Assembly (NCBI GenBank): GCA_945883545.1
Contig: CAMCXT010000004.1
Location: 29,124-93,123, forward strand
Length of the DNA: 64,000 nucleotides
Reading direction: 5' to 3'
Source of the DNA: Chitinophaga pinensis
Lineage (GTDB): Bacteria > Bacteroidota > Bacteroidia > M30B66
Part shown: positions 36,167 to 61,755 of the stretch, one piece after another
How the letters are laid out: each line of letters begins with the position of its first letter
How positions within the stretch are numbered: position 1 is the stretch's first letter
Position numbers and translations under genes: made by a program
The notes under the pieces: generated by a model
What the model was told of the DNA's origin: nothing
Databases searched by the model: none
The model's input: only the letters and a program-made list of their open reading frames with translations

Positions 36167-36250
36167 CAATGCGAAGATCGGATTTCCGCTTTTGAAAATG
36201 TGGCTGGTTGATAAATAATCTGCCACGACCAAACATGAAGGCAAAAAAAA

Positions 36251-36349
36251 TGGGTAAGTTACTTACATCGCACCGCTCAACCGTCTGCCCTTGCTATCTT
36301 CCGATCCTGGGGGAGTTCAACAGGAGCTGGTCGTATAAGACTTACCCAG
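36251..36349 (-). ncRNA. ffs: small (bacterial) signal recognition particle RNA
   Basis: Reverse strand contains the conserved helix-8 motif CCAGGATCGGAAGATAGCAAGGGCAGACGG...GCGGTGCGATGTAAGTAA; 5'/3' ends pair (TGGGTAAG / CTTACCCA); followed by T8. Confidence 0.9.
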
Positions 36350-36351
36350 CG

Positions 36352-36359
36352 CAAATATA
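36352..36359 (-). promoter_or_regulatory. -7 box TATATTTG of SRP RNA
   Basis: Exact TAnnTTTG immediately upstream of the SRP RNA 5' end on the minus strand; TTTG 22 nt further upstream. Confidence 0.65.
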
Positions 36360-37470: not shown

Positions 37471-37582
37471 ACTAGTCTATTATTGCTGCAAGTTAGAAAA
37501 GCTATGGTTACCAGCATCTTTAGTAATTGAATTAATTGTTAAGTAATTACATTTTGACTCACCTGGGTTTGATGCGTTTTTT

Positions 37583-37637
37583 GGGGGGCAAACGGGCTTT
37601 CCGCGGTACACGGTACCCAGCTCCAATCCCTGCCCTT
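37583..37637. repeat. GC-rich palindromic intergenic element
   Basis: GGGGGGCAAACGGGCTTTCCGCGGTACACGGTACCCAGCTCCAATCCCTGCCCTT; GGTAC/GTACC inner and GGGCA/TGCCC outer arms. Confidence 0.5.
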
Positions 37638-37790
37638 AACTGCTAATTGTGGTCTTGAATTTTCAAATGAACATTGGTTTTTGGTCTTTGAATCCTTTCA
37701 ATTTTCGGGATAATTCATGGTTTAGTGCTTCCTTTAAATTGGTCGAATTACTGCATTGTATCGATCATTTTTGTTCTGGAATTTGATTAC

Positions 37791-38252
37791 CCGATTTAAC
37801 CGTTTATATCCGTTTCATTGCCGGATCAGGTTCTCACAATTCATTAGGTTTGCCCGGGAAGGGGATGGTTGGGTTCCCTAAAAAATTAAAATTTTCCACG
37901 CAAGAACTTAGGCATCAGATGCTTTAAGAATTTACAAATTCTTGGTTTTCATCTTGTTAAAATTCAGCTATCCGATTTAACCGTTTATATCCGTTTCTAA
38001 CCGTTTCATTGCCGGATCAGGTTCTCACAATTCATTAGGTTTGCCCGGGAAGGGGATAGTTGGGTTCCCTAAAAAATTAAAATTTTCCACGCAAGAACTT
38101 AGGCATCAGATGCTCTAAGAATTTATAAATGCTTGGTTTTCATCTTGATAAAATCAGCTATCCGATTTAACCGTTTATATCCGTTTCATTGCTGGATCAG
38201 GTTCTCACAATTCATTAGGTTTGCCCGGGAAGGGGATAGTTGGGTTCCCTAA
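37791..38252. repeat. three tandem copies of a ~90-bp core with ~180-190 bp period (copy 3 truncated)
   Basis: CCGATTTAACCGTTTATATCCGTTTCATTGCCGGATCAGGTTCTCACAATTCATTAGGTTTGCCCGGGAAGGGGATrGTTGGGTTCCCTAA starts at 37791, 37972 and 38162. Confidence 0.93.
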
Positions 38253-38478
38253 TGAAAATTAAAATTCCAACCAAATTGAATGTTATATTGAATTCAATAG
38301 CCTTCATTTTCTGTTCAGTTAATTGATTTTATTCCTTGTCTCTTTTCTAAAAAATCCAACAGTCTACAAATTCCAGTTGCCACTTTCTTTTACCTTATCA
38401 CGTCATAGGGATAAACTCTCAATCTTTTTGCTTTTTGTATAAGTTACAATAACTATCTTAGTCCAAATTTAAGTTTCA

Positions 38479-39837
38479 ATGAAGCAATTCCTCACTCCAA
38501 TAGCCATTTTATTAGCGACCAATCTATTGGCGATCAATGTCACTTTTAGATTAAACATGAACGGATTGCAAGGCTTCGGAACACCCGAAGTAAATGGAAC
38601 ATTCAATAACTGGTGCGGCAACTGTAATTCAATGTCGGATGCAAACAACGATGGCATCTGGGAAGCAACGCTCAATTTGCCTGCTGGCAACTACGAATAC
38701 AAGTTTTCCTATGATAGTTGGAGTGGTCAGGAGAACTTATCTGCCACTACAGGTTGTTCAGTTACCAATGGCAATTTCACCAATAGAACTTTGAATGTAC
38801 AATCGGATGTAGTTCTTCCAATTGTATGCTGGGGCCTATGTTCCGAATGCCTTCAGCTTGAACCAGAGACTTGGCCCTTGACGTGGTCGGAAGAATTCGA
38901 TGGCAATGAGCTCAATCCAGAAACTTGGTCGTATAATATCGGTACTGGTGCAAGTGGCTGGGGAAACAACGAACTTCAATATTACACCAATGCTCCTGAA
39001 AACGCCCTTGTGAGCAACGGAAGCTTAAAGATCACAGCGAGGAACGAATCGATCAATGGAAGCAATTACTCTTCATCGAGGATCATCACCAATAATCTAT
39101 TCGAATTTCAATATGGTAGGGTAGAAGCACGTATTAAAGTGCCGATGGGGCAAGGCTTGTGGCCTGCATTCTGGATGTTGGGTGGGAATTTCGAAACTGT
39201 GAGTTGGCCGCAATGCGGAGAAATCGATATCATGGAACACATCAACAACGAGCAAGTCATAAGTGGAACCGTTCATTGGAACAACAACAACCACGATTAT
39301 AAAGGCTCTTCAGTGCCATTTACACCAAACGATTTTCATCTCTATGGAATTGTTTGGGACCAAGAAAGTGTTGTTTTTACGCTCGATAATCATCCGTATT
39401 TTGAATTTCCATTTGTTGCTAACAACAATACAGAACAAATTTTTAGGAATCCTTTCTTTTTGATTTTAAACGTCGCTGTTGGTGGAAATTGGCCAGGAAA
39501 TCCTGATGGATCAACTGTTTTTCCTGCTGTAATGGAAGTGGATTATATTCGTTTATATCAGAATGATGTCTCAAAATTAAATGACGATCAAACGGAATCT
39601 GATATTGTTTTGTATCCCAATCCATTTCAAAATACCTTGAATTTTTCACAATTTGATTTATCAGGTGATACACATATCGAAGTGCGCGATTTTACTGGTA
39701 AATTGATTCATTACTCAACCCTGAATCAATTGAATTATTCTGTCAACACAGAGTCTTGGAATGAAGGAATTTATCATGTTTCTATTGTTTCAGGTTCATC
39801 TAAAATTTTTAATTGCAGAACTATCAAGTCGAACTAA
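38479..39837 (+). CDS. glycoside hydrolase family 16 (laminarinase-like) with T9SS sorting domain
   Basis: WPQCGEIDIMEHINNEQ (GH16 catalytic motif), LTWSEEFDGNELNPETW; C-term VLYPNPFQNTLNF. Confidence 0.92.
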   Translation: MKQFLTPIAILLATNLLAINVTFRLNMNGLQGFGTPEVNGTFNNWCGNCNSMSDANNDGIWEATLNLPAGNYEYKFSYDSWSGQENLSATTGCSVTNGNFTNRTLNVQSDVVLPIVCWGLCSECLQLEPETWPLTWSEEFDGNELNPETWSYNIGTGASGWGNNELQYYTNAPENALVSNGSLKITARNESINGSNYSSSRIITNNLFEFQYGRVEARIKVPMGQGLWPAFWMLGGNFETVSWPQCGEIDIMEHINNEQVISGTVHWNNNNHDYKGSSVPFTPNDFHLYGIVWDQESVVFTLDNHPYFEFPFVANNNTEQIFRNPFFLILNVAVGGNWPGNPDGSTVFPAVMEVDYIRLYQNDVSKLNDDQTESDIVLYPNPFQNTLNFSQFDLSGDTHIEVRDFTGKLIHYSTLNQLNYSVNTESWNEGIYHVSIVSGSSKIFNCRTIKSN

Positions 39838-48897: not shown

Positions 48898-48920
48898 CTA
48901 TACTTTTGCGCAGAATTTAC

Positions 48921-49031
48921 ATGGAGTCTAGAAACCATTCACAAACAGGGCCGAACCGAAAAGCCAAAAGAGTAGGAAAAAAATACTATCCAATACATCA
49001 GATAATTTCTGAGATTGAATTGTTCCAATAA
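48921..49031 (+). CDS. putative 36-aa small protein
   Basis: MESRNHSQTGPNRKAKRVGKKYYPIHQIISEIELFQ*; preceded by TACTTTTG; below ORF-track length cutoff. Confidence 0.3.
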   Translation: MESRNHSQTGPNRKAKRVGKKYYPIHQIISEIELFQ

Positions 49032-61680: not shown

Positions 61681-61755
61681 GGGAGTTTAGCTCAGCTGGT
61701 TCAGAGCATCTGCCTTACAAGCAGAGGGTCACTGGTTCGAACCCAGTAATTCCCA
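61681..61755 (+). tRNA. tRNA-Val (anticodon TAC)
   Basis: Cloverleaf: GGGAGTT acceptor / AATTCCC; anticodon loop CTTACAA; T-loop GGTTCGAACC. Confidence 0.96.

Follow-up and report, generated by a model that had tools for sequence, protein, structure and literature searches.

The 64,000-nucleotide stretch of DNA analysed here, referred to as the window, harbors a gap between an EEP nuclease gene and a GH16 enzyme gene. Both assignments of the earlier note were confirmed by matches to PF19580 and PF00722, respectively, and no open reading frame of 60 or more amino acids was found to lie wholly within 37476-38478, as that note had stated. The three tandem copies it described in the gap were all recovered from the window sequence, with starts at 37791, 37972 and 38162. 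The start-to-start spacings of 181 and 190 differ because the core of copy 2 contains exactly one additional 10-bp unit compared with copies 1 and 3. Over the 167-nt repeat, copies 1 and 2 were 95% identical; copy 3 reached 66% over the same length. A second conserved segment of about 90 bp follows copies 1 and 2 and stops soon after copy 3, consistent with its previously reported loss at this position. A repeat of such length and identity is far beyond chance. The GH16 gene starts at 38479, approximately 230 bp past the last hairpin of the array, and has the same direction.

Three parts make up each copy: operator A, which is an array of 10-bp repeats, then the -7 box TAGGTTTG, and finally a G-rich sequence that could form a hairpin. 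In the window copies, operator A consists of three to four tandem 10-bp repeats of the unit CCGTTTATAA. The -7 box starts exactly 32 nt past the last CG of operator A in all three copies, and the hairpin (GGGAAGGGGAU..UUCCC), located at the predicted +1, begins 11 nt past the first base of the box. The features of the array are listed below.

37791..37812, + strand: operator A of copy 1 (CCGATTTAA CCGTTTATAT CCG); the motif is also present 5′ of comEA, comEC and ssb
37845..37852, + strand: -7 box TAGGTTTG of copy 1, offset 32 relative to the final CG in operator A
37856..37878, + strand: G-rich 5′ end and potential hairpin of copy 1 (GGGAAGGGGATGGTTGGGTTCCC)
about 37857, + strand: predicted transcriptional start site of copy 1, from the position of the -12/-5 box
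37879..37971, + strand: downstream body or spacer 1, 95% identical to spacer 2 and not conserved in the sister species
37972..38003, + strand: operator A of copy 2 with the extra 10-bp unit (CCGTTTCTAA)
38036..38043, + strand: -7 box TAGGTTTG of copy 2, offset 32
38047..38069, + strand: G-rich hairpin of copy 2
38070..38161, + strand: downstream body or spacer 2, from the repeat comparison
38162..38183, + strand: operator A of copy 3, from the sequence
38216..38223, + strand: -7 box TAGGTTTG of copy 3, offset 32
38227..38249, + strand: G-rich hairpin of copy 3; repeat similarity stops shortly after it

Small open reading frames running through the core of copies 1 and 3 were rejected, since their frames are broken by the 10-bp insertion in copy 2; the core is therefore regarded as noncoding. 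Another conserved intergenic element (CGCGGTACANGGNACC...CAATCCCTGCCC) was observed at 37595-37645 and in the sister species (L086), upstream of the array in both, and similar elements (AGGGATTG) occur at other loci (L011). Elsewhere in the window, Rfam matches were obtained for a Bacteroidales small SRP RNA (36248-36354), a DUF805 RNA (48916-48982) and a tRNA (61681-61755).

Two pairings had been proposed for the core. All three copies could form the GGGAA/TTCCC pairs, although folding of the window units was only slightly better than that of shuffled sequences (z -0.3 to -1.4). TTAGG/CCTAA pairing did not prove to be a general feature, and the -7 box begins with TTAGG. The covariation check suggested for the GGGAA/TTCCC stem was negative in the units classified as type I: the stem bases were nearly invariant, and 0 pairs had changed on both sides in the predicted consensus. 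In agreement with the earlier failure to recognise a riboswitch, no known Rfam family matched the units at or above the gathering threshold. Intrinsic terminators downstream of the units were not enriched over shuffled sequences. An H-type pseudoknot formed with an upstream CCCC strand was rejected after comparison by eye, since conservation of this strand does not extend across the types.

The sigma-A -7 box of Flavobacterium psychrophilum, TAnnTTTG, occupies positions -12 to -5 (PMC9723704). Placing the box of the array accordingly would assign the predicted +1 to the second G of the hairpin. All window copies carry the Bacteroidota-type sigma-A box TAGGTTTG, and the offset from A peaks at 32. 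Among 127 flanks of A sites lacking a hairpin, nAnnTTTG was found at offset 32 in 11, compared with a mean of 0.47 per offset, and 13 cases were counted at offsets 20-22. In the hairpin units, a relaxed box showed peaks at 31-32 and 20-21 from A. Moreover, a G-run was directed away from A at 59 sites, mostly at distances of 32-38 or 41-48 nt, and these two classes are one helical turn apart. The helical phase of the -7 box from A (32 or ~21) is equal for gene promoters and hairpin units. This geometry, which com genes and hairpin units share, is characteristic of an activator array that occupies one fixed face of the DNA.

Operator A sites were studied by genome searches and in retrieved sequence stretches; a sequence model of A was used to search ten genomes of the source family, and matches were merged. 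In the source genome, the search for further units that the earlier note had recommended revealed the core at about 20 other loci. The G-rich core gave 23 exact matches and the A pattern 33 strand matches, compared with 0 for the respective reversed controls. Near-palindromic A sites match on both strands. With the sequence model, merging left about 29 sites in this genome. Four of these precede genes, namely ssb (L003/L079), a ComEA-type helix-hairpin-helix gene (L005), comEC (L093) and a four-helix-bundle 23S_rRNA_IVP gene (L013). The remaining sites (approx. 25, at 17 loci) precede G-hairpin units, and A was found in either orientation relative to the hairpin. Gene calls were based on Pfam and NCBIfam, with Competence (PF03772), ComEC_N-term and the ComEA helix-hairpin-helix repeat (TIGR00426) above cut-off, SSB assigned by PF00436 and IVP by PF05635; IVP scans were run on the orthologues from genomes G002 and G004. 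In Riemerella, transformation genes include those for YifB/ComM and for a helix-hairpin-helix protein (PMC8459023). Across the source family, including another genus, A sites precede comEA, comEC, ssb and 23S_rRNA_IVP genes. Operator A is specific genome-wide, and we consider the identification of operator and regulon well supported. The four-helix-bundle (23S rRNA IVP-like) gene carries the operator upstream in six species (L013, L164, L166, L173, L184 and L192), which suggests that it is an unrecognised competence gene.

The window locus is syntenic in the sister species (genome G002), where a single unit lies between the GH16 and EEP nuclease genes. The alignment covers about 100 bp from A through the end of the hairpin, the flanks are not alignable, and only A, the promoter and the hairpin are kept. 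Other orthologous loci likewise retain these three elements without their flanks. Within the family, TCCAAATNAAGTTNTNAACA lies 19-21 nt past the end of most type I hairpins (log-likelihood 240 versus ~60 for shuffled sequences); the window copies show no recognisable version of this motif at that position. Where type I units lack A, most of them carry a dyad, ATCAACA-N4-TGTKGATAA, whose distance to the downstream G-run is 70-71 or 81-82 nt, two values that are again one turn apart. As these units carry a different operator, the hairpin is a module shared by at least two operators and thus not exclusive to competence. Dyad-bearing type I units without A were observed at L023, L051, L055, L096 and L105, and the dyad halves resemble DnaA boxes. 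Similar hairpin units were also found in a second family. The related records are uncultured freshwater Bacteroidetes MAGs.

Beyond the source family, the A motif was detected in 19 of 395 Bacteroidia genomes, while the reversed pattern gave 0 matches in all 395. In four further families, A occupies the space separating ssb from a divergently oriented gene for a zinc-ribbon protein. The encoded zinc-ribbon protein of ~120 aa (CxxC..GRADKKFCSDQCR; L218, L219, L230, L232, L172 and L079) had no Pfam or NCBIfam match and is possibly a member of the regulon or its regulator. In family f16, A precedes comM (TIGR00368), ssb/nth, comEC, an XerA/integron-type recombinase gene, DUF2851 and an M3 peptidase gene; comM was found under A in this family only. 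A common operator is present in the upstream regions of comEA, comEC, ssb and comM. Furthermore, A precedes many G-hairpin units in f16, with the boxes TAAATTTG or TAACTTTA, and some arrays are flanked on both sides by hairpin units oriented away from them. The recombinase under A in f16 is an XerA/integron-integrase-like tyrosine recombinase (L286, 1735-2592). Integron-type recombination sites were rejected as an identity of the units, since A precedes the recombinase gene in f16 alone and the homologues in family f1 lack an A site.

In this genome, comEA, comEC, ssb and the four-helix-bundle gene appear to be driven by this operator with identical spacing. We therefore consider it probable that the array is a triplicated small non-coding RNA gene of a Bacteroidota competence regulon. 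Each repeat would be a self-contained transcription unit. A putative activator would bind the tandem 10-bp sites cooperatively, one site per helical turn, and recruit sigma-A RNA polymerase to the TAnnTTTG promoter, whose box begins 32 nt from A or a full turn closer to it. Activation rather than repression is likely, since A is placed upstream of the promoter. Transcription would start within the G-run and thereby give the RNA a G-rich hairpin as its 5′ end. The same arrangement of operator and spacing would control the four genes here and comM elsewhere, and the non-coding RNA gene would be present in about 25 copies genome-wide. By analogy with the multi-copy csRNAs, the RNA might act in trans via its conserved 5′ G-rich hairpin. 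The negative covariation result, the low folding scores and the lack of terminator enrichment speak against a function as RNA; the unrecognisable type I motif in the window copies and the type I units without A likewise count against this reading. The operator, the regulon, the spacing and the conservation are read from the sequence; beyond these, we infer transcription, the 3′ end and length of the RNA, the regulator and the action of the RNA. The earlier proposal offered two readings, a tandem small-RNA array and a multi-site cis element, and each applies to one half: the front of the core is a DNA operator, and the back half corresponds to a promoter and the G-rich 5′ end of the predicted transcript. 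The 10-bp repeats, the promoter and the link to competence were not part of that proposal. For the wider claim that members of the Bacteroidia possess an undescribed tandem 10-bp competence operator, with most sites driving multi-copy G-hairpin non-coding RNAs in at least two families, we see the chances as evenly balanced.

The main rival interpretation places the function at the DNA level. During competence, the transcribed G-rich stretch would fold into a hairpin or an R-loop that promotes recombination or marks a site, or the units would mainly serve as decoys for the competence activator, and the RNA would have no target. This would fit the end of conservation just past the hairpin at the window locus, the lack of terminator enrichment, the position of the G clusters, which in every type occupy the non-template strand from +1 onward, the different copy number of the tandem array between species, and the operator in front of the XerA/integron-type recombinase in one family. 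However, the recombinase of the source family lacks A, promoter conservation would be needless for pure decoys, and the second motif fixed 19-21 nt past the hairpin end of most type I units fits a defined product. We regard a DNA-level role as unlikely.

Three further explanations concern the origin of the array or its neighborhood. Its direction and its distance from the gene at 38479 would allow the array to be the promoter and leader of the GH16 gene. Across the loci, however, a hairpin unit and the gene that follows it point the same way in 28 cases and are opposed in 16, often at distances of hundreds of bp, and three serial promoters would be redundant. A next-gene leader was rejected for the missing clear directional bias, and we judge this explanation improbable. 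A dispersed mobile or REP/MITE-like repeat carrying the operator by chance could account for the many dispersed copies, their tandem arrangement and their intergenic position. It is disfavoured and very improbable: the loci share no common boundaries, terminal repeats or flanking identity, only the cores of A and hairpin are alike, several loci are syntenic between species, and the operator also occurs alone at com genes. Moreover, searches for phages and plasmids gave no match, which speaks against the known mobile element that the earlier note had named as a possible refutation. Finally, the near-identity of copies 1 and 2 extends beyond the core, as expected from a functionless local duplication, but the preservation of the core and not the flanks in the sister species, together with the exact promoter spacing in 3/3 copies, makes this hardly credible.

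If the array indeed consists of non-coding RNA genes of a competence regulon, entry into competence would be accompanied by a burst of small RNAs. A regulon that is mostly non-coding by number of sites is predicted, which would be unusual. In the open-access papers searched, we found no described competence operator or regulator for Bacteroidota. Our finding supplies a concrete operator, a promoter geometry and a gene list (comEA, comEC, ssb, comM, the four-helix-bundle protein and the zinc-ribbon neighbor of ssb), testable in a transformable member.

Operator A resembles the CRP-S/Sxy, ComX cin-box and LytTR (ComE/HdrR type) operators in being a site that late competence genes have in common, and in having direct repeats upstream of the core promoter (PMC6193735). 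LytTR sites are two 9-bp direct repeats spaced 11-13 bp apart (PMC6193735); in contrast, operator A comprises 3-5 contiguous 10-bp units in either orientation. Regulators of the BldC family bind cooperatively, head to tail, to a variable number of direct repeats with AT-rich and C-G elements (PMC5859096). This likeness concerns site architecture only, and no BldC-like protein was tied to operator A. Short direct repeats are likewise found upstream of numerous loci in the case of the intergenic TAACTGA repeats, some Bacteroidetes included (PMC4679880), but these are heptamers of another sequence with a proposed translational role and without a competence link or hairpin units. In streptococci, the direct-repeat regulator CiaR drives several similar small RNAs, the csRNAs (PMC8186281, PMC4507080). 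The present units share with them a direct-repeat site, several similar units, some of them in tandem, a position beside protein genes and a link to competence (PMC8186281, PMC4507080). The CiaR site TTTAAG-N5-TTTAAG is replaced here by the tandem CCGTTTATAA, and the intrinsic terminators that follow the csRNA sites were not enriched over shuffled sequences; the array is therefore not a member of the CiaR csRNA family. In contrast to the five csRNA units, the predicted non-coding units with operator A number about 25, belong to a different phylum and differ in sequence, and their contiguous 10-bp array is common to comEA, comEC and ssb themselves.
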